From assembly GCA_905160935.1 (NCBI GenBank), contig CAJHZI010000371.1:1178501-1242500 (forward strand): a DNA stretch of 64,000 bases, written 5' to 3'. The position numbers and the translations under genes are program-made. This document shows positions 1-60,070 of the stretch, piece by piece. This DNA is from Enchytraeus crypticus (lineage: Eukaryota; Annelida; Clitellata; Enchytraeida; Enchytraeidae). Every line of letters begins with the position of its first letter. Within the stretch, counting starts at the first letter, position 1. Under the pieces are notes generated by a model. The model was not told the origin of the DNA and did no database searches. It worked only from the letters and a program-made list of their open reading frames with translations.

Positions 1-957
1 ATTAAAGATATAACTGCTATAAAGGTATGCAATTATTTACCACATTTCTATCTATAAAAACGTTAGTACTTTCATAAAAACAAGAAAAAACTCATTCTTT
101 CTCATGTAACTGAGAGAGAGAGATATGTGATTATTTCAGCATCAACACCAAATCACTGACAAACACAAATAGAAATAAACATTTAAAAGAAATAAAATAA
201 AAAATTCTCAGAAACACAGGGTATCAAGCAGTCTTAAGAAACTAGAACAACGGCCGTCAGGGAAGATGATACACATCTTATCTAGCTGACCATCGTCTAC
301 AACTATATTAATGTCATGTTTAATGCAAAATCAAGTTAAATACACACTTTAGCTAAGCAACAATTCTAGCTGGACATTTATACAAAAGAACCAAACTTAT
401 TTACAAACCATGAAACAATTTTTAACGTTTAGTGAATTCTGCTAGGGACCTCGGACTGCGGATATCAGGAGGTATTTGGTTCCAAGAATTGATAAAGCTA
501 TAGACATAAGATAAGTTCTCACTGTGCTTGAATTGATAATCTAGACTCATATTAATGAACTGCTTTTGAAAATATTTTTCCCATTTATCTTTGGCTATTT
601 GAAATGCCTTCGGAAATTGATAATGACTATAGATTCAGGTCGGCTGATTCGGCTACAGACGAAATCCTTAGTATTGTCATGAGGAGCCAGAACCGGAAGA
701 GAGACAGGAAGTTAAATATTCATTGATTGATTAATTGGTTGCTTGATTGAATGATTGAATGACTGACATGTTAATTGATTGAATAATTAATTTATTGATT
801 AACAGCGTAACCCAAATTTAATAATTATTTTAAAGTACAAGTTGGAATCTGATTTTTTTTATTCAAAAAAGTGAAATAAAGTTAAACCTTTGTTCTCGTA
901 CACAAGCAAGAATGATGAATAGAAAGCGAAGCCATCATATTAAACCAGAGAACTTAC
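1..957. other. Intron of the DZANK1-like gene, no coding signal
   Basis: This A+T-rich stretch lies downstream (minus-strand sense) of the last DZANK1 exon in the window. I see no exon-like reading frame or known repeat. It contains only a short GA run near 113-122 and a degenerate TTGATTGAATGA-type run near 722-800. The rest of the gene, which in vertebrates carries the zinc ribbons and ankyrin repeats, should lie beyond the left edge. Confidence 0.5.
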
Positions 958-1290
958 CAGATATTCCTCTGTTTCATAAAATGGATCTCTCTTTTTCAGC
1001 ATCTCTTGTTTGGTTTCTTTCTTGGGGGCAGTTGGCTTCATTGCTGCTGCTACCTTACTCACAGTGCCAATATTAAGCTTAGACTTAGGCTTTGGAGGTT
1101 CCTTCAAGGGCACCTTTTCAACAGGTTTAGGTGGAGGTGGAGCGGGCGGATCTGGCTTAGACTCAACTGGAGCAGGCTTCTCTTCCTTTGAGATCTTTGC
1201 TTTGGGTTTTTGAGCTGAGTGACCAGCTTTAAGAATGGAAACCGTGAGTAGAAATTCATCATCTTCTTCATCGAAATCAGCTTGAATAAT
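958..1290 (-). CDS. DZANK1: DZANK1-like coding exon 7, Pro/Lys-rich
   Basis: The acceptor is TGTTTCAG and the donor a perfect CTG|GTAAGT, phase 0 on both sides. It has 111 codons: an acidic start ([12 protein letters not shown]), then a long Pro/Lys/Glu-rich disordered segment, ending [10 protein letters not shown]. Confidence 0.8.
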
Positions 1291-4200
1291 CTGAAACAAA
1301 TAAAGTATGAGTCTCTAAGTGATAAGCATTATCTTTCCTTAAACTCCAGTACACCTAGCGTCAGGATCTGAATAAACGTTTTCTATTCATCTTAGAAAAT
1401 TTTGTAACAATTTCTGAAGCTTAGACGCTTAACAACCGAACGCTCTCTCTGACTTTGGTTTAAATCTTAGTGCTTTGTCGCCTTTTACGACAAGTGCAAT
1501 CTATGGTTTGTCTATTATTCAACAGCTTGGACATTTTATATAATACGAACACCATGAGTGCCTAGGTTAGGAAAGAATGGAGGACTTAACCGTAAAAAGG
1601 AGCAGCCTCATCATTAATATTCAGGATCGATATGTAAATATAATATCATAAGAATAAATGCATAACTTTCAAAAAGGAATCTGTTATACAAGTATATAAT
1701 ACATTAAGATAACTGCACAATGTACGTATGAATCAAATGACTTTGGAATATATAATTGTGCATAACTATTTTCCAACTAGTTACATTTTTTAATTAATAC
1801 AAAGTTCCGATGGATAAAAATTATAATATTGACTATGCCTCCTCGTATATGGCTTAATTTAATAATTATCTAACTCTGCCAAGCCTTGGTGTTCCAATGG
1901 CAGTTCTGAAATATGTGTCAGAATGGCATCTTTCCACTAAGTGCGCGTAAATGTGCTCCAGTTGCCCCTTCCAGTCACCTACACATACACATACACACAA
2001 AACACAAGGTATAAATGAAAATGCTAATGTTGAAAGCTAGGAACATTGGAATCTCTCAGATCAGACTTCTTTAACATGGGAACACAGAGTACGCGATCCA
2101 GTACTAAAAATGTACATTTTTTACATTTAACTTAAGCTTTAAGTTTTGTGTCTCGGCTCTAGCAGAGTCAATTACATGTATAATGAGCGTGTCGTATTAA
2201 AAGGCTGAGAAATGCAATGGGAAAGCACTAGAAAGCCACTTTTCTCTCAAAATATTGACGAAAGACAGAACAAAAGCTTAAGACATAGCCTTTACTGAAA
2301 GATCTACCAGTTGGTCATTTGAGTGCAGTGATGTGCGTGAAAACAGACTGTAATTAAATTCTCTCAACGAATTTTGCTAATTGATTCATTTATTTTTAAA
2401 TTCAATTAACTTTGGGAGTCTCTCTCACATCTATATCTATAAAGTGGCAATTAATCATAATAAGAAGCTGACCCGGTGGCGTGTTGGTACGTTGTTGGAC
2501 AGCGAATCAGTAGGAGCAGGGTTCAAATCCAGTGCTCTCCCGTCACTGAGATGCGATCGAGCAGGAAACTGATATTTAACTTGGTTTAAGCACTTTGCTT
2601 TTATAATGGTCTCCTTAAACCTCGTATACGAATTTTATACAATTAGCATTTTCACAATGGTACTCCTGAGATAGGTATAAGCTTCAGAGATTTGTAAAAA
2701 TATTATATAGTAACAGTAGACCTACAATTTTACTGCCTTAAATAATTTCAATTATTTCAAAACGTATTGCATTACACATTCAATTTTATTATATACTGGT
2801 AAAGCTGATAATGCTAATGTTAACGTCAGTTTCCTCATCGAAAGCGATGTCAGTGACGGCCGAGCTCAGGATTTGAACCCCGCACATACTGATCCGCGGT
2901 CGAATATCTTACAGACATGGCCACTGGCTCAAGCCAGTGGCGATGTCAGTAAGAACAAAAGTATTGTCTTTGCATAATACTGTGTAAAGTGAGCCAAGTA
3001 ATTGCCAACGCAACATAGGCCTACCACTTCTTTTCTACCACGCTGAATTGAGTTCATTTGCAGTTTCCTTACTCGATGTAAAATATTAATTATCAGTAAG
3101 AGAATGCTTGGGATTAGAACTCCGCACCTATTGGTTTGATTGCTTGCTTTACCGACACCTGAAGGAGAGACAATTGTCGGTAGAACAAGTTACTATGAGT
3201 AGATAGATTCTTTAAAAGGTCGATGTCGTGTGAATGTTAGCTTCGCAGAAGAGGACATAGTTCGTCAGATGAAATGCAATCTGATTAGCAGAAAATTCAA
3301 AAATGACAATCTCAAGGAATACAAAGATTTGGTTAAAACTACATCAAACGATGGATTTCTGCTTTGAAACTACGATAAGCAGAATATACACTGATTTGCA
3401 GTCGGAAACCTAACAGATCACTTCATTGGTCAAACGGTTTAGTAAAAATATCCGCTGTAATGAAGAAATAAATCAAATTAAAACTAACATTACAATCAAG
3501 TATTTTCAATAATAGCAGAATCAGTACGCTACATAAATAAATTACATGACAAATCAAATATGAGATCATCGGTCGATGCTGATAGAGCTGAGATAATATT
3601 GCCCTGACAACAGTATAGTATATACAGTAAGAGGAAACCAATATCTAAGGCATATTATTTAGCAAGAAACTGAATGACTACTAGATAATATTTTATAATA
3701 TCTAAAAGCTAAAGCTGATGTCAGTTTCATGATTCTAAATTATATCAATGCCTAAGCAAAGCAAAGAATAATAGGCCTATACTGCCATATTTATATTAAT
3801 AGACACTATAAATAAACCAGAAATAGTATCAGACATTGACTAATTAAACACGTATTTTAGCAGTATAATTTGAAATGTAGATTGAACCTCCGTTTCATAT
3901 TAATACCTCCTAGGAATCATTGATACACACCATTTCCAGAGCTTTCCATTTTGAACTCGGGTTCTTTGGTGACGTACTCAATAGCCGGAGGTCTCGGAGT
4001 CGCTCGCTGAGTCTCAGCCTGTATGAGTAATCTCAGGTCAGACAAACTCATCCGTGGCTGATCAAAGTTCTGCATCACAATATACAACACCCATCAACCA
4101 GAGTTCTGTATTACAATCATAAGTATAAACTTGCAGAGGCTTGCTAGATTCATGCCAAAACTAAATTTCAGAAACTGGGTCCTGTATTATTACAACAGCG

Positions 4201-31787: not shown

Positions 31788-32045
31788 AGACCGCCGCACT
31801 CGCCGGACTCGCCGTACTCGCCGGAGTCCAGAAACTGTAGACCGCCGCACTCGCCGGACTCGCCGTACTCGCCGGAGTCCAGAAACTGTAGACCGCCGCA
31901 CTCGCCGGAGTCCAGGAACAGGTCTTCTGACGTAGACCGCCGCACTCGCCGGACTCGCCGCACTCGCCGGAGTCCAGAAACAGTAGACCGCCGCACTCGC
32001 CGGACTCGCCGCACTCGTCGGAGTCCAGAAACAGGTCTTCTGACG
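31788..32045. repeat. 51-bp G+C-rich tandem repeat with 9-bp subrepeats
   Basis: Units begin AGACCGCCGCACTCGCCGGA and end GAGTCCAGAAACTGT. Within them CGCCGNACT-type nonamers repeat. There are about five units, some shortened. It lies within the presumed LTR. Confidence 0.88.
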
Positions 32046-40038: not shown

Positions 40039-41919
40039 TGTAATAATAATAATAATAATAATAGTAATTCAACGTTTCAGTACAACACTATTAAATACAA
40101 TTTCGATTATATAATAATATTAATAGTAATAATAATAATAATTTTATGAGCCAAATAAAACAGGTCCCACTTCAATGCAATTGTTTAGGGGATGCTGGAT
40201 TATACAAATTGTAGGAACAGCCCTCTTTTCAGTATAGATGTATACCGAAAAGAGTGCCAGAAGTCAAGTAAGCAAATAAATGAGCACAGTGAGTATACAA
40301 AATGTAATTTCGTAGTTTTTTGTAACAATCAAATCCATGTCATAATATGGGAAATGCAAAATTGTACAAGGTTATTTATATACATGTGTATAGGCTGGAG
40401 CCAGTGGAAATGTCAGTAAAACTTTAAATAAGAAATTGCTTCATAATGAATTGCCTTCGAATTATAATCCTTCTTTATTGAATAGCGCTTCATTCTTTGT
40501 ATATAATTCTCGACACACATCGGAGTTTGTCCTATCGAGATTCAAACTTCTGTTTCATGAAAATTATATCGCCGTTCGCGGACCAAAATCTCGATGTCTT
40601 CAGCTAATCTTTAGATATTAATTAAAGTTCGAAAAGGATATCATGCATAAGATATAGGCCTACATGTATTTTACAATTATTATAACATTTAAGTTACTTT
40701 AAAATGTACTATATTGTGTAGATTATTTTGCATAGTTATTCTCTGTCGTTGCTTTATATGAATGTTTGACGATTGAAGTATTTCTACTAACTACTCTAAA
40801 GGATATCATGCATAAGATATAGGCCTACATGTATTTTACAATTATTATAACATTTAAGTTACTTTAAAATGTACTATATTGTGTAGATTATTTTGCATAG
40901 TTATTCTCTGTCGTTGTTTTATATGAATGTTTGACGATTGAAGTATTTCTACTAACTACTCTATGTATTTCTTTATAATTTTTATGTTTTACTTATTATA
41001 ATTTTAAAATTACTTTCATTAATGATCACCATAGTATGATTATTAATTTTATATATTTGTAATTTTCATTGGTTTTTAATGTTTTACTAAATATTTTGAA
41101 CTCAATTTATTTACCGCATAGTAGGCCTATGATAACTTGCTGTAGATTTGTAATTTTCTTTTTACGTATGTGAACTATAAAGAATAGTATGCATATCGTG
41201 AAGTTTTGTAGATAAATACACAAATAAAAAAGTGCAAAATGGATTAAATCACTTTGGATGATAGTTTTGGTAGTTCCAGAATTGTATTTAATGTTGTTTG
41301 TGTGTCTTTTTAGGCACACTAACTACATTAAATACAACTCTGAATATATTCTGTATAAGTAAATCCTGTCTAGCGTTATTGTAATTTTATATGCAAAGCT
41401 AACTTGTCATGCTATTACTACATAACCAGTGCCGTTGATAAATTGACAATAATTACATCGAAGTGATTTAAACCATGAAAATATTAACCAAACAGCTCCA
41501 TGTCGTCCTCATCTCTGCCGAGTCCATTTGCTGCCACGCACTTGTAGAAACCGTAGTCAGCGGGACCTAGGTCACTGATGCAGAGCGACAGGGTCAATGC
41601 GCCGTCTCCTTCTTCATAGGCTTCTATGCGATATTTGATGGAACTTGTGAGGCGCCGACCTTCCTTCTCCCAGTAGTTGTTAGCGTGAGGGAACGCTGTG
41701 ATGACGCAGTTCAGTATCGTCTCACGTCGCCTCTGTTTCTGACCCAGTCGCTTGTTCGGCATGAATATAATGGGAGGGACTAAAACGGCAACATCACATA
41801 AATTTTCAATTTATAATGGCTACTTCAAACAAAAAGTGAGTTTAAATTTTAGATTTAGAAGTGAATATTTTGAAAGATTCAATAGCTAAGGATTTATATA
41901 CAGTATATATATATATACA

Positions 41920-44361: not shown

Positions 44362-47300
44362 CATACATACATATATACATTATATATATATATATATATA
44401 TATACACTGTGAGTCAAAAAAAACATGTGCGCAGTCTCTCGCTCATAACTTTTGTATTAGTGAACCAATTTTTTAACTTCTTGCATAGGTATAATCAGGA
44501 AAACATTTGCAATAAAATAACATTAAGTGACTCTGTTAATTATTATTTTCTCGTTGAAGCAGTGCTTGAAAATATGTGCGACTGACAATATTCAGTGTAA
44601 GTAAATCAATCGCTACCGAATGTTTACAAATCCAGTGGAACTAACAATGAAACACACGAAACAAACAGTGTAATACAGCTACTGTCAACTGTCAAAGCAC
44701 ATGCTCAAAATGTCCTCCTTTGGCTCGAATACAAGCACGGAGACGCTTGCGCTACTCATCTTTTGCGTTGTCAATGACAGATTGCTGCATGTCTTGCCAA
44801 ACGTCCACCAGGCGTTGCTTCAACTCCTCCACGTCATTTATTTTCTTCTTTTCTGCACAATTTCTCTAATAAGCAATCTAGCCCTCCCAGAATCCATTTT
44901 TTGTTGGAAATTCGGCAATCAACCAATGTGCACCATCACCCTTTAGGAGGTACAAGTCTTTTTATGAGCGCGTTATCTTCATTAGTAAATACCATTTTAA
45001 AATTTCAACAAAAACAGACTATGTTTGTATAATCGTCTCTTATTATCTAAAATACACCAGAAGTGTCACAAAAACTAGATTTAAGATTAATACTTTTCTT
45101 CTTCTTTATAATTCTGAAAATATTTTCAAAATCGGTTAACAATTGTCAAAGTTGTGCACGAAATACTGCGCACATGTTTCTTTATGACTCACAGTGTATA
45201 TATATATACATATATCTGTCTATACACTACACACACAATTTCTCAAACACTCACACTCTAGCTCCCTTCACCGGTTCTTTTACATATTAATTTTTATTCT
45301 TTCATCATTCAATTAGAGATGGGAATCGAACCGTACCCGAACCGAACCGAACCCAAAAATCAGGAATTTTTGATCGAACCAAACCCGAACCCAGACTTTG
45401 ACCGAACCCGAACCCGAACCTCACTCGAACCCAGACTCTGACCGAACCCGAACCGAACCCGAACCCAGACTTCGTCCAAACCGGAATGAACCAAAATATT
45501 GAAGTTCCTTTCTCCTTAGCCAGCCTGACATTATATAAAGATAGTAAAAGCAATACAAATATATATTAGTTTTTGCATTTACATGTCTTACAGTATCCAA
45601 CAGCATATATTCAAGTAAGGCTGGTTCCGACACAAATTTAAAAATAATTTAATAACAGATAGCGATACAAAGGAATGGTAACGCTACAAAGGAATGGTAG
45701 CGGGAAGCGAGACTGGTCTACAGAAGATAGTGGATAATCTGAATTATATGGCATTGAAATATGGAATGAAGATTAACATCAAAGAGACAAAAGTAGTGAG
45801 AGCATCCCGGAATAGAGGTAAAGTCAATATTATAATAAATGTCACGAAATTGGAACAGGTAAGGAGTTTCAAATATTTAAGTCATGCTATAACAGATGAT
45901 GGGAAACGTGAGACTGAAATATATAGTAGGATTGCACAAGCAAAAGAAACTTTTGATAATAGGAACCTTTTAACAAAAATCCTAAAGACACTAAGATAAA
46001 GACAGCGAAAACCTTGGTATGGACTATGCTATTATATGGATCTGAAACATGGACATCAAGGAAAGAAAATATCAGGAAACTAGAGGCATTGGAAATATGG
46101 ATATGGAGGAGAATGGAAAGGATTAGCTGGACTCGAAAGGTTACAAGTGATGATTTTCTGGAGAGAGTTGGTAAAGACAGTTAATAAATATATTAGGATA
46201 TAGGAAGAGATGGATAGGACACATTCTAAGAAGGGAAAGTTTATTGAAAAAGGTCATAGAAGGCAGAATGAAAGGAAAAAGAGGCAGAGGCAGACCAAGA
46301 TTATAAATGTTAGATGATTTTAAGATCCACTCATATGGACATGAAGAGGAAAGCGGAAGACCGAGCAAAGTGGAGGCCTTACATACCATGGACCTGTAAT
46401 AGGCAGTGCACTAAGAGAGAGAGAGAGAGGGAGGGAGAGAGAATTACAAAAATCACTGGAATTTCAGACACTTATAGTTTGTTACTGGTTCAGTTAATAG
46501 CAAAAGGTATATATTATGATCATTTTTTCTGTGGAAGTACATGTGTTTATCAAATCGTCCTTATTTCACATTTTATGTTAATAAGTTGCACTTTGTCTCT
46601 GAAATATTGCATCAAATTTTAGACTAGACTTTTCCATTTAATTATAAACGTTTCTAATATACAGGCCTAGTGACAAAATTTATTTTTAAATGGATGAAGC
46701 ATTCTATTTTCTGGTTATAATCAAGGAGAATATTACAGATACTGTAAAAAAGTTAAATATCTATTTTTTGAACATTTTTTGTCAACTTATAGTATTTTAA
46801 GAAATGTACAGGAATAAATACCACTTCTCTCATTTTTTCATTGTCATATTTTTACTCAGGTGACAAATGTTTCAATTACTATGACTTCATGTATTTCTTT
46901 AAGCATATTTACCATAAACCATTTTAAACATTTATCATAACCATGATTATTATAAGTAATGTTAAACAATTGCAACATTATCCAAACCAAACCATTTAGA
47001 ACTCGAACCGAACTCTTGTGAGTTGGAAAGCAAGCCGAACCCGAACCGAACCCGAACCCTTGTTCTAACCGAACCCGAACCGAACCTAACTTTAATTTTC
47101 AACAAACCGAACCGAACTCTCAAATTGTCAACTGCTAACCGAACCTGAACCGAACCGAACTTTCATTTTCAACGACCGAACCGAACCCGAACTCTCAAAT
47201 TCATAAAATTCCCATCTCTACATTCAATCAAATTCCATTCTTCAATCAAATCAAATCAGAAATCAGCACATCATTTTATCATAAATGTATCCACTATATA

Positions 47301-50300
47301 TTTATATATTCATTGATCATTCTAATCAATTTATTCATGGCCTATGACGTTCTATATCAATCATGAAAACACACCTTTTTAGATTAATCGATATTACTAC
47401 CTATATTCCGTGTGGGTCAACCAATCACATCCAGGTTTAGTCAGATTCGAACATGATAATAAAATATTGAAGGCATTGAAAATGAAAATAAAGCAATTAA
47501 ATTTTATATGTTACGGATACTTCTCTATATACGGTAAAAACTTGACTACTTAAAAGATTCAAGTCTACATGACCTTTTAATCTTTTCAATCTATTGATTT
47601 AGAAATACTCATTAGCGGCTAATACTGTGTAAAACTATGTACCTTGAACCTGATACTCAGTAAGCAACTAAAATGAAAAATACTACAGGCAGTAAATATC
47701 CTTACACTGAACAATGACAAGAATTTGTTTGCGCACAGGGGTAGGTACTCCATTGTCTCCCACACATTCGTACAATCCATCGCAGTGTCGGGTTATGTTG
47801 TACAACGTCAGTCGCTCGCCTCTACCTATCACTCCTAGACAACACAACAACAACAACAATACAACGCTACGTTGTACACTCTCAGTCACTTTCCTCTATC
47901 TATCACTCCTAGACAACACAATAACAACAACAACAAAATGCAACTCTATGTTGTTCACTCTCAGTCACTCTCCTCCATTTATCACTCCTAGATAACACAA
48001 CAACAAAATACAATACAACTCTACGTTGTACACTCTCAGTTGTTCGCCTCTACCTATCGTCCTATCGCTCATACACAATAACGCCAAAGACACAATGGCG
48101 CTATACTAGATTTACTTATCAGTAAACACAACGGAGTCATGGCATAATTTAGTTGTAAGGATAACCCGGATGCGTAGTGTAGGTTTATTTCTTTTCAATT
48201 CATTAACAGAATATAATGGCCAAGAACAGTACATGTATAAAACACATTAAGCGTAATTCACAATATGGAACTATTAACAGTTAAGGTTTTATTCATTCGT
48301 GTCAATGTTTCTCGCATCTTGCGAATACTTGTCGTTATCGAAAGGTTTGAAAGTTAACCAGAAATTGATCCTAAGTTAAATATTCAAGCATCTTTAACAT
48401 ATTCTTGCCTAAGAGACATTAAACAGAAAATTTCACATGTTTTTAAAATCATGCGGATTAAGAAAACTTTAAGTAAACACCAAATATTCCGAAAAACTAG
48501 AGTCAAGCTCGATGAAAATGTACTACTACTTTGAGTTTGAAGCAAATCAATGCCACCAAAGTTAATTTTAAATTTATAAATCAATCAATGGAAACAAAGT
48601 TAAATTTATCGATTTATATTTATTTATAGAAAATTCAAAAGTGTGAATACGTTTTGAAACGTTATTCGTACTTTAGACATATCGTTTACTAATTAGAATA
48701 TTAATAATGCTAACATAAATGAGCTAACATAAGTCATTTATGTCATTTTTAACAGTATTATCACATTGAGCACATTGACCTGGTTCTTGACCATCCAGGC
48801 CACACCTCCTCAGTGGGTCCGCTTGTCTCCTGTACCACGTGATGCGAGGCGTGGGCACGCCTTTAACAACGCACAAGAGATCGACGTTCTTCCCTTCATC
48901 CACCGTCACTTCATGGTTGGACGTCTGATCATCAAGCTCTGGTGGCACTGTTACAAACAGAAACTACACATAAGAAGCGCCGTGGGTATATCATCCCTGG
49001 CTCAATGAACTTGCCTACAGTGTTAAAACTTCCTCGTGATCCAATGGTTGTTCGAGTTCGGGGCCGGAGAGGGATTGAAATTAACTAGAGATGAGAACCG
49101 AACCGAACCCGAACCGAACCGAACCCTAAAATCTAGAATTTTGACCGAACCGAACCGAACTCGAACCCAGACTCTGACCGAACCCAAACCGAACCCGAAT
49201 CCAGACTCTGGCCGAACCGAACCGAACCCGAACCCAGACTCTGGCCGAACTCGAACCGAACACGAACCCAGACTTCGTCCAAACCTAACTGAACCAAACT
49301 CTTGTAGTTCCTTTCTTCTTCACCAGTCTGCCATTAAGTAAAGGTAGTAAGAACAAAACAAATATACATGTATATTAGTTTTTGCATTTACATGTCTTAC
49401 AGTATCTAAGAGCATACATTCATTTAAGGCTGTTTCTGACAAAAAATTTAAAGTGGTAGCGGTACAAAGGAATGGTAGCGGGAAGCGAGACGGACCTAGC
49501 GAAGATAATGGATAGTCTGAATGATACGGGCATACGGCATTGAAATATAGAATGAAGATTAACATCAAAGAGACAAAAGTGATGAGAGTATTCCATAAAA
49601 ATCTGAAAATGCTTGACTCAATCTAGGTGGATTTGTTCTTGTTAAATTCAAATTATGAATTTTTTATAATTTTAGTGTGCTACCTTATAGTATTTTTGCA
49701 ACCAGATTTACAAATAATTATATAAGACATTCTATATGTGTTAAGACTATCTGGAGTAAATAATTTTGCACCATGGCAATGCAATAATATCATAACTATT
49801 TTCTTAACTTCATAATTGATCTGAGAGTTTCAAATTTGAAACCCTAAGATAAATTATGAGGCTTATTGGTCAGTTGATAGCAAACGGTGTATATTATGAT
49901 CATTTTTCTATGGAAGTACACGTATTACCAAATCATCTTTATTTGACATTTTTATGTTATTAAATTGCACTTTGTCTCTGAAATATTGAATCAAATTTTA
50001 GCCTAGACATTTCCACTTAATTATAAACGTATCTAATACATAGGCCTATAGTGACAAAATTTTTTTAAAAATTGATGAAGCATTCTAGTTGCTCGTTATA
50101 ATTAAGGAAAGTATTTCAGATACAATAATAAAGCTAAATATCTATATTATGAACATTTGTTGGTCAACTAACAATATTTTAAGAAACGTACAGGAATAAA
50201 TACCTCTTCTCTCCTTTTTTAATTGTCATATTTTTACCCAGGTGAAAAAATGTGGCAGCTATTATGACTTAGTGAATTTGTAAGCATATTTACCATAAAC

Positions 50301-53300
50301 CATTTTAAACATGTTTGTCATAACAATGATTATTATAAGTAACGTTAAACAATTGCAACATTATCCAAACCAAACCATTTCGAACTCGAATCGAACTCTT
50401 GCGAATTGGAAAGCAAGCCGAACCCGAACCGAACCCGAACCCTTGTTAGAACCGAACTCGAACCGAACCGAACTTTCATTTTCAACGAACCGAACCGAAC
50501 CCGAACTCTGGAAATTCATAAAATTCCCATCTCTAAAATTAACCCTCTTGCAATGTTGTCTTGAGGAATTCCTTCTCACAGTCTTGCTAAATCTCATTGA
50601 CTACTACTATAATAAAATTGATTACTATTAATTTCATATTTAATAAATGTTATTATTTGTCAAGTAAAATTAAAAATTATGTAGTTATAATTATTAAAAG
50701 TCTAAGATTATTGCCTCTAATATATTACGTACACAGCTGTCAAATAAGAAAATACTCACCGTTAATATGCAGATTGACAAACTTGGTGCGGATGGGATTT
50801 GTGTTAATTGTGCATCTATAGGTTCCTTCGTCCTGTCGCCTCACCTCTCTAATCTGAAGATTCCACTCCGTAACAAGCCTCCTTTCCAGGTCAAACCGCG
50901 GGTCATCGATGACTCTCCTGTCTTCGTACGTCAACGGAAAGGAATTGAAATCCAACCATGCAACCTGCAGAATATATTGATATTATTATCATCCCAAGTA
51001 CTAAATAAAATAAAATTACAACTGAAGAAGTTCTAGAGTGAGTTTTACAGAGTGAGTTTTTACAGAGGCAGATTAGGTATGATTAATGATTTTATGATCC
51101 ACTCATACTGGGACATGAAGAGGAAAACAGAAGAAAGAGAAGAGTGGAGGCTCTATTTGTCATGGACCAGCCAATACGCAGTGTAGTAAGAGAGACAGAG
51201 AAAGAGAGAGAGAGAGAGAAAGTACTGAATAATATTTAACACATTGTACCCGACGGTGTCAATACCCCTTGTGATAACGAATAAGAAGTTTATTTTAGAT
51301 ATTTGATTTAAATAGAATTAATCATATATTAGAAATGCATGAGAGATTAGCATGTAGGCCATTAATTATATCAATACTGGCTTTTTACTTTACGCTATAA
51401 AAATTATATACAGTATACAGGGTGAGTAAAAAAAATGATTACACCTGCAAAAAGTTTGAATAGCTCAGGCTATTGTTAATATTTTCCAATAAAACTTTTA
51501 CCAATTACTAAAGGACTAATTTATGATGGGGTGGCCAATTTTCGTCAATTTTGGTCATAGGTTGGCCAGTTATGCTAGTTTCAGCAGAGCAACCCCCCAT
51601 TTTTTAATGCACTGTAAATAAAAATTATATTTAATTTAATTTTTATTTTGGCCCTGAAAAGGGGCGTTGTAGTGGTTCAGAAGGAACCAGTTGCATATGC
51701 CAGCTTTACTGACTACTCGATATGCTTTCCTCCAACTGCTACGCAGGACTGCAGTAGCTTTCGGAACGCTAGGACAGCCTTGATGATTCCAGCTTGGGGC
51801 AGTATCTCCCAAATTGATTGTAGCACTTCCTGCAGTTCTGTCTTGCTTCTAGGCTTCGACTGGTGTTTCTGATAGATATGTAGCATGGTTCCCCAGACAT
51901 AGTAATCTAGAAGATTTAGATCGGGAGAGTTTGGAGGCCATTCATTCTTCTTAATGAAATCCGGGCTTCTCTCGCTGATCCATTCCTGTGCATGACGAGA
52001 TGCATGAGACAGAGCACCATTCTGCTGAAAGATGAAGCCATTTGGTAGAAGAGCATAGCAATCATCAAACAGCTCCGGAAGCAAAGTGTTGATGTAATAC
52101 TGAGAGTTCACCTTTACCTTCTCGTCAATGAAGTGCACTCTGCCCTTACCGTTGTAGTAAACGCCATTTTTAGGTAAAAATAGGGGGTTGGTCTGCTAAA
52201 ACTTGCATAACTTGCCATGTACCAAAATGGATTAAAATTTGTCACCCCATCAGAAATGAGTAACTTACTAATTTGTAAAAGTTTCATTGGAAAATATTAA
52301 CAGTAGCCTGAGATATTCAAACCTATTGCAGGTGTAATCTTTTTTTTACTCACTCTGTATATCTGAGGACGAAGCGAAATCAGTAACATTAAGTCGCTCT
52401 CTACTTCATAGTGTACATATGGGCGCTTCATTATTTATTCCTAAGGCTGGATCTAGTGGCGATGTCCGTAAGACATTCGATCGCGGATCAGTATGTGCGG
52501 GGTTCAAATCCTGGTCTCGCCCGTCACTGGCATCGCTTTCGAGTAAGGAAATTGACGTTAACATAGCTTTCTATAGCTTTTAAGACACTATTATGTAATG
52601 TATTAAAAATTTCTCTGTGTTTTAAGTTTTAACGATCCTTAATATAATATCATTAGGGATCTTCATTACATTTATAGCAAAACTACCCCGATAGCACTTT
52701 AAAACTTGCAATTTGCTTGTTTGTTAATGTAATATAATGCAAATTTTTTGTGGATAGTTCTCTAGATAGCGTCAAATACAATAAATAATAGATATTCATG
52801 GACTCGATGTATACATGTAGCTGTAAAAAGCTTACAAATAAGATAATTGTTCAATAAGGTGATCACTTTTTTTCTTATGATCAAGATGTACACGAGGACT
52901 ACGATATTGACGACCACGAAGACAAATACAACGACGACGATGAAAATGAAGATGACGACGCTGATGACGATGGTAAAGCCGATGACGATGACGACGACGA
53001 CGATGATGATGACGATAGTTATGATGATGATGAAGATGATGAAGATGATCATGATGATAACGATGATGACGAGGACGATGACGTTGGTTATAAGGACAAT
53101 TATATATGGATGTGAATCTCTTTGGTGGTTACAAACCACATCTATTTTGAAGATTGAAGAATTAAACAAATATTGTTGATTTAATGATTAGATTACTTAC
53201 CTTGTTTTTACCCAAGTACTGGATGATGCAGGGAAGGACAGCGGTCTGGCCCTGCACCACAGTCACATTGATCACAGGGACGTCGAATGTAGGTCCCAAC

Positions 53301-59340: not shown

Positions 59341-59345
59341 GACGG

Positions 59346-60070
59346 AAAATATAAAAAAACCAAGAAACTTTGAAAATGTGGATATGGAGAAGAATTGAAA
59401 AGATTAGCTGAACTCAAAAATCTACGAATGACGAAGTTTTTGAGAGAGTTGATACAGATAAACAGTGGATAAATGCATTAAGCAATAGAAAGATGAGCTG
59501 GATAGGACACATACTGAGAATGGAAAGTTTACTAAAAGAAAATATTAAAAAAACCAAGAAACTTTGAAAATGTGGATATGGAGAAGAATTGAAAAGATTA
59601 GCTGAACTCAAAAATCTACGAATGACGAAGTTTTTGAGAGAGTTGATACAGATAAACAGTGGATAAATGCATTAAGCAATAGAAAGATGAGCTGGATAGG
59701 ACACATACTGAGAATGGAAAGTTTACTAAAAGAAAATATTAAAAAAACCAAGAAACTTTGAAAATGTGGATATGGAGAAGAATTGAAAAGATTAGCTGAA
59801 CTCAAAAATCTACGAATGACGAAGTTTTTGAGAGAGTTGATACAGATAAACAGTGGATAAATGCATTAAGCAATAGAAAGATGAGCTGGATAGGACACAT
59901 ACTAAGAATGGAAAGTTTACTAAAAGAGATAATTGAAAGTAGAATGGAAGGAAAGAGAAACAGAGCAGAGATTGATTAGGAATGTAAGATGAATTAAAGA
60001 TCCATCCATATGTGGACATTAAGAAGAAACGGGAGACAGAGAATAGTGGAGGCATATGCCATGCACCTTC
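59346..60070 (+). mobile_element. LINE 3' end with a 194-bp segment in three tandem copies
   Basis: Units beginning AAAAAAACCAAGAAACTTTG at about 59351, 59545 and 59739 are near identical. Each encodes KMWIWRRIEKISWTQKSTND and RKMSWIGHILRMESLLKE-like residues in broken frames. The third unit continues into the normal LINE 3' end (GRMEGKRN..., then CATGCACCTTC) and a (TGAG)n tail. Confidence 0.9.

Follow-up and report, generated by a model that had tools for sequence, protein, structure and literature searches.

The 64,000-nucleotide stretch of Enchytraeus crypticus DNA analysed here (NCBI GenBank assembly GCA_905160935.1, contig CAJHZI010000371.1, positions 1,178,501 to 1,242,500 of the forward strand; hereafter the window) contains two hAT-like elements, e1 and e2, both of whose ends carry arrays of short CCGAA(C) units. 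Element e1 (45314..47220, plus strand, 1907 bp, type A) begins with the inverted tip TAGAGATGGGAAT (45314..45326, plus strand), which is followed by the left arm (45327..45464, plus strand), an array with 14 exact CGAAC units. The interior holds a segment resembling the 3' end of a long interspersed nuclear element (LINE; 45676..46416, plus strand) with a (GA)n tail to ~46441, and no transposase was recognised in it. The right arm (47004..47192, plus strand) has 17 exact CGAAC units on the same strand as those of the left arm, and the element ends with the inverted tip ATTCCCATCTCTA (47208..47220, minus strand). The 8-bp target duplication CATTCAAT stands on either side (45306..45313 and 47221..47228, without strand).

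Element e2 (49086..50535, plus strand, 1450 bp, type B), derived by deletion from a 4-kb long form, has the same plan. Its left tip TAGAGATGAGAAC (49086..49098, plus strand) and its right inverted tip (50523..50535, minus strand) enclose a left arm with 19 exact CGAAC units (49099..49267, plus strand), a remnant of the LINE-like segment of e1 that is 83% identical to it (49454..49594, plus strand), and a right arm with 14 units, again on the strand of the left arm (50381..50506, plus strand). The duplication flanking e2 is AAATTAAC (49078..49085 and 50536..50543, without strand). The positions, tips and perfect duplications given for both elements in the initial annotation were thus exact, as was its description of CCGAA/CGAACC arrays with the same orientation at both ends; the reverse word GTTCG occurs 0 times inside e1 and 0 times inside e2. 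The terminal bases are inverted as described, but over a longer stretch than the 8 bp noted there, pairing at 13/13 positions in e1 (TAGAGATGGGAAT / ATTCCCATCTCTA) and at 11/13 in e2. The two had also been presented as two copies of one element. They do belong to a common family, but their left arms are only ~80% alike and their internal deletions differ; e1 and e2 are separate subfamilies, not equal copies.

Copies elsewhere in the genome (a 524-Mb assembly of 802 contigs) were collected with e1 as the query. The best 40 of 11431 candidates were scored, giving at least 56 matching pieces, and 39 further loci were fetched, a sample biased to e1-like copies. Copies with no more than 3 mismatches at each tip were taken as full-ended; there were 35 of them, namely e1, e2 and 33 of the 39 fetched loci. 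The loci L032, L034, L037, L039, L040 and L046 were left out for lack of a qualifying tip; the flanks of L032 match, yet it lies within an AT repeat. The 8-bp flanks were identical in 27 of the 35 copies, differed by one mismatch in 7 and by two in 1, so that 34/35 agree with at most one mismatch. When both octamers were shifted by 1–6 bases, only 1/35 agreed perfectly at each shift, and when octamers were swapped between different copies, agreement was found in 1 of 1190 pairings. The perfect octamers follow the consensus nTnnnnAn, with T2 in 22/27 and A7 in 26/27, for which the binomial tails are 1e-7 and 4e-12. Among seven long copies the flanking octamers are identical in 6 and differ by one mismatch in L079, and the left tip of L106 has one changed base.

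We then compared the joined flanks of the 35 copies with the sequence retrieved in the analysis and obtained 5 spanning matches, at sites that are paralogous and not orthologous. L069 and L017 each hold an empty site for L028, and L033 holds one for L036, all with the identical octamer present once; empty sites whose single octamer has one mismatch were seen in L036 for L033, and in L002 and the window itself for L047; the candidate for L013 is a gapped match. The proposal that the elements moved by hAT transposition is supported on each of the points compared: 8-bp duplications in nearly all 35 copies, short inverted tips of 13 bp, the nTnnnnAn target, and single octamers at empty sites. The tips of hAT elements usually begin with (C/T)A(A/G)NG, and those of this family begin with TAGAG. 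Terminal inverted repeats of hAT elements measure ~10–25 bp (PMC3942097), and nTnnnnAn is described as a mark of the Ac group of hAT (PMC8961557).

Membership in hAT is thus well supported by these footprints in the sequence. Another superfamily, P/Galileo-like or Mutator/foldback-like, might instead mobilise the elements, with similar duplication sizes and repeat-rich ends. The ends of Galileo and Tetris are long and internally repetitive (PMC3688188, PMC4079207), the duplications of Tetris, placed in Mutator by its authors, are 8–10 bp, and no transposase ties the array-armed family to hAT. We regard this alternative as improbable, given the nTnnnnAn bias, the constant 8 bp, the 13-bp tips starting TAGAG, and arms that are direct and not inverted.

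The ends are abundant. Exact left ends occur 1262 times in the genome (633 + 629) and exact right ends 1098 times (579 + 519), and either pattern read backwards occurs 0 times, which excludes a chance origin. Viral contigs contained 0 left-end matches. The 13-mer TAGAGATGGGAAT has 2916 occurrences against 9 for the reversed control, whereas TAGAGATGGGAAV, with any other 13th base, has 134 against 100; the shared tip therefore includes base 13. Convergent tip pairs closer than 10 kb numbered 34, and all 17 that could be typed at both ends consist of one left and one right end. Since only exact ends were typed, 14/34 pairs are typed at one end and 3/34 at neither, a margin in which rare symmetric elements are possible. 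One tip pair (G000:C7:302165-302370) is just 206 bp apart, possibly a miniature copy, and at G000:C354:739244-739312 four TAGAGATGGGAAC words on alternating strands form a small inverted cluster within 70 bp.

When the 100 left ends at the head of the list were matched with 94 of 100 listed right ends (the last six omitted), 56 left ends had a partner in the right order within 30 kb and 44 did not; two of the 56 pairs (11 and 16 kb) are doubtful. Neighbours in the wrong order within 6 kb were seen twice, and both cases are explained by adjacent copies. Most pairs are e2-like in length (38 at 1.20–1.54 kb), with 4 at 1.66–1.78 kb, 3 e1-like at 1.89–2.00 kb, 4 at 3.9–4.1 kb, and the other 7 between these classes or longer. 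The four copies of the 4-kb class, L079–L082, were examined. Relative to L079, e1 lacks positions 838–3266 and e2 lacks about 445–3016. About 265 bp of the LINE-like segment retained by e1 are missing from L079 itself, and the source of e1 was therefore a similar long form and not L079.

The LINE-like segment is present in the long copies L079 and L080 and absent from L081–L084 and L106. It gave no Pfam match; its copies elsewhere in the window share a 3' boundary (query 777–803) and differ in their start points. This pattern, resembling 5' truncation, together with our reading of the frame, suggests the 3' end of a LINE, and we call the segment LINE-like for that reason. At 59345–59927 the window has the same 3' sequence in three tandem copies of 194 bp that are 99% alike, a young tandem array derived from such a fragment. 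Type A copies (33, with e2 and L044 omitted from the averages) diverge on average by 3.9% from their consensus and by 7.35% from one another, with a pairwise minimum of 4.1%, and look star-like.

The direction of the arrays was examined in 43 copies, comprising the 35 full-ended copies, L078, and the long copies L079–L084 and L106. At both ends together, the outer 230 bp contain CCGAAC 813 times (418 left, 395 right) and GTTCGG 0 times. The long, mutually pairing inverted repeats of a foldback element are accordingly absent from these 43 copies, whose arrays are direct (813 to 0). Genome-wide, right tips with an array in the normal direction matched 508 times on one strand and 1294 times on the other, single tips being counted several times on the latter, against 1 match with a reversed array; this figure concerns the right end, and the polarity of the left end is that of the individual copies examined. 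What is new here is this fixed co-directional polarity, together with the one left and one right end in all 17 typed pairs.

Placement is also regular. In 32/36 copies the distance from the left tip to the first unit is 13 nt, and in 31/36 that from the last unit to the right tip is 34 nt. The spacing is 17–27 nt between blocks of units and mostly 5 or 6 nt between neighbouring units, and the spacers differ between left and right. In nine comparisons between subfamilies, the bases from 12 to 40 (left) or 47 (right) are 88–100% identical. Loss of CpG in the arms was considered as a sign of methylation and rejected, TG/CA standing at consensus CpG positions in 25/523 and 24/603 cases in the arms and in 33/428 in the interior.

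Regularity of this kind bears on the possibility that, in the same non-autonomous hAT family, the arrays arose by neutral tandem expansion and were carried along with the source copies, with only the tip and the first tens of bases being of consequence. Array length does vary among copies, gaps concentrate in the arrays, between subfamilies just the outer 40–47 bp are clearly conserved, and in Hermes mutation of the putative inner left-end sites caused no dramatic loss of activity (PMC10368747). Neutral expansion would nevertheless have to account for one unit type at both ends, different spacers and a mostly fixed distance from the tip across all 43 copies and their subfamilies, and for reversed right-end polarity in a single match genome-wide, although inheritance from a single ancestor could still explain all of this. 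We consider neutral arrays unlikely.

A further suggestion, that the arms act through single-strand hairpins instead of protein docking, had been made in the initial annotation from their repetition alone. The "repeated secondary structure" proposed there was not borne out for the two e1 arms: folded as DNA on the given strand, they gave z values of 0.15 and 1.80 (positive meaning weaker than the shuffles), and 110/200 and 197/200 dinucleotide shuffles folded at least as well. Judged by this folding of the e1 arms, hairpins seem a very improbable basis for the action of the arms.

Next we looked for a transposase that could serve the family. The exact tip is nearly exclusive to it in the genome, so an autonomous partner, if the genome has one, should carry these tips or diverged ones. 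A genome search with the hAT domain PF05699 (252 candidates, 150 scored) listed 122 matches, 0 of which fall in the window, in agreement with the original statement that no hAT transposase is encoded here. The sequence around 52 of the 122 listed matches was covered, and for the remaining 70 the comparison went no further than position, against partial lists of ends. In 30 PF05699 loci with 1.5 kb on either side, and in 20 others over 1 kb on the C-terminal side or downstream, tips accompanied by arrays were absent. In 6 of the 30 loci there are seven isolated tip words, which are not ends of the array-armed family. Near the 30 loci, tips with duplications formed credible pairs in two cases (CAGTGTTATTCAAG and CAGTGATGTTAGAC) and an AT repeat in one; the rest had no credible tip pair, and both CAGTGTTATTCAAG and CAGTGATGTTAGAC differ from the family's tip. 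A hAT domain at C29:17349 appeared to lie within a family copy and was rejected, as the copy stops before the domain.

The long copies gave a similar picture. Eight open frames of L079, L081 and L082 contain no hAT domain, all weak Pfam matches being below the cut-offs, and the majority sequence of five long forms has a longest open frame of 153 aa, lying over the left arm. L083 (6740 bp) has a hAT-like frame that scored 20.9 bits with PF05699, just under the cut-off of 21.4. This frame was set aside as a partner because it lies in a nested hAT element (~1717–4320 of L083) with tips of its own, CAGGGGTGCGCAAC, and is not the family's own; the nested element is flanked by a clear 8-bp duplication, ATCTATGG, and its uninterrupted site is seen in L082. 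The PF05699 match in L105 (C580) was likewise dismissed, lying within a nested hAT (~770–3640) with its own tips, CAGGGGAGGTTCTGG, and a duplication with two mismatches. Two tip pairs of 6.3–6.7 kb showed no hAT-like frame by eye in the middle 1.5 kb of each. The full-length relative with a hAT frame and the same arms, which the initial annotation had proposed to look for, was thus not found among the 52 of 122 listed matches covered by sequence. The family, its 4-kb form included, has demonstrably undergone wide amplification without a recognised transposase.

Taken together, we think it probable that e1 and e2 are members of a large family of non-autonomous hAT elements with an Ac/Hermes-type target, moved by a transposase acting in trans, and that their arrays are docking sites for it. 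Of the possible roles of the arrays, transposase docking, which the initial annotation had suggested as a multi-site platform, is the likeliest and is plausible by analogy with the subterminal repeats of other elements. A hAT transposase with the Ac/Hermes target preference, supplied from elsewhere, would move the elements by cut-and-paste, and the CCGAA(C) units beside the tips would be subterminal repeats read by the BED domains of a transposase multimer, many weak sites together conferring specificity for the ends. Because the co-directional arrays read inward at one tip and outward at the other, the two ends would look different to the transposase, and this difference could make a left/right synapse more likely than a left/left or right/right one. 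On this reading e1 and e2 derive from ~4-kb long forms by internal deletions that were separate events, both arms being kept each time; in one long-form lineage the LINE-like 3' end had been acquired, and type A expanded in a star-like burst.

Several points weigh against this interpretation. The copies come from the best 40 candidates, with the bias noted above, and T2 is absent from 5 of the 27 perfect octamers, including those of e1 and e2, which have A there. Isolated GTTCG words occur elsewhere in 5/35 copies and also in 5 of 6 listed long ones. Unit number ranges from 8 to 20 in left halves and from 6 to 22 in right halves, which neutral slippage fits equally well. The inner left array is 67–93% identical between subfamilies, as against 70–97% for DNA 200–420 bp inside; being no better conserved than interior DNA, it leaves constraint on the arrays clear for the outermost part only. 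The sites in Hermes are more widely spaced than the 5–6 bp units here, and at such a spacing not all units could be bound at once. Finally, as no transposase with matching tips was found, it is footprints and analogy that support the assignment to hAT as well as the proposed binding role.

A more specific idea is that array polarity itself is the label that distinguishes the left from the right end, identical sites read in opposite directions permitting only left/right synapsis. We offer it tentatively and think it rather doubtful. If true, the family would be a natural, exaggerated version of the end asymmetry needed by Hermes; the excerpted account of Hermes leaves unsettled how ends are recognised beyond the short tips and why left/left ends fail (PMC10368747). 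The many similar copies, with near-fixed tip distance and direction and a free number of units, would be natural substrates for tests of direction, spacing and number.

The window has other repeats and coding sequences. Between e1 and e2, at 47797–48058, lie ~3.5 tandem copies of a 79-bp unit unlike the arms. A 165-bp unit is present in two tandem copies, 99% alike, at 40633–40963, and at 31788–32032 lies a GC-rich minisatellite (CGCCGGACT-type, 51-bp units) in which both strands contain open frames. An open frame on the minus strand at 51713–52195, without a Pfam match, encodes what we take to be a mariner/Tc1-type transposase. The window also holds an Ig I-set domain, a reverse transcriptase and a SUZ-C motif.

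Among the titles and abstracts listed in literature searches, no family with co-directional arrays turned up, a weak indication of absence as Repbase and subscription journals were outside the scope, and the array words and tip words led to seemingly unrelated works. One close likeness is to Hermes, a hAT element of the Ac group from Musca domestica, which has 8-bp nTnnnnAn duplications, short inverted tips, subterminal repeats and non-equivalent ends (PMC10368747, PMC8961557, in the parts drawn on). Three BED domains of its transposase bind the left-end repeats, binding of the right end apparently goes through its tip, and ends symmetrised to left/left are inactive; the left repeats STR2-7 are antisense and the right repeats STR1-5 sense (PMC10368747). 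If each end is read inward, we infer that these repeats, too, share one direction along the element. Hermes differs in having AAG(T/C) repeats and its own transposase, whereas here the CCGAA units are 5–6 bp apart and no transposase was recognised.

Elements with internally repetitive ends are also found in Galileo (P superfamily) and Tetris (foldback), and the repeats of Galileo hold extra binding sites for its THAP transposase (PMC3688188, PMC4079207). As these sources describe them, however, their arrays lie within long terminal inverted repeats and run in opposite directions, whereas here the inverted part is only ~13 bp long and the arrays are direct. The hAT-derived Kat1/MATa element of Kluyveromyces has repeated hexamers beside its tips that may enhance activity (PMC4763223); in the published portion used here, the polarity of its repeats changes between the ends, whereas in the present family it is constant. 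Ds of maize is likewise non-autonomous and of varied length, with shared tips and some shared subterminal repeats, and needs a transposase in trans (PMC3260210), but its partner Ac is known and none was found here. By analogy, the array-armed family may work like a Ds-type element equipped with subterminal repeats.

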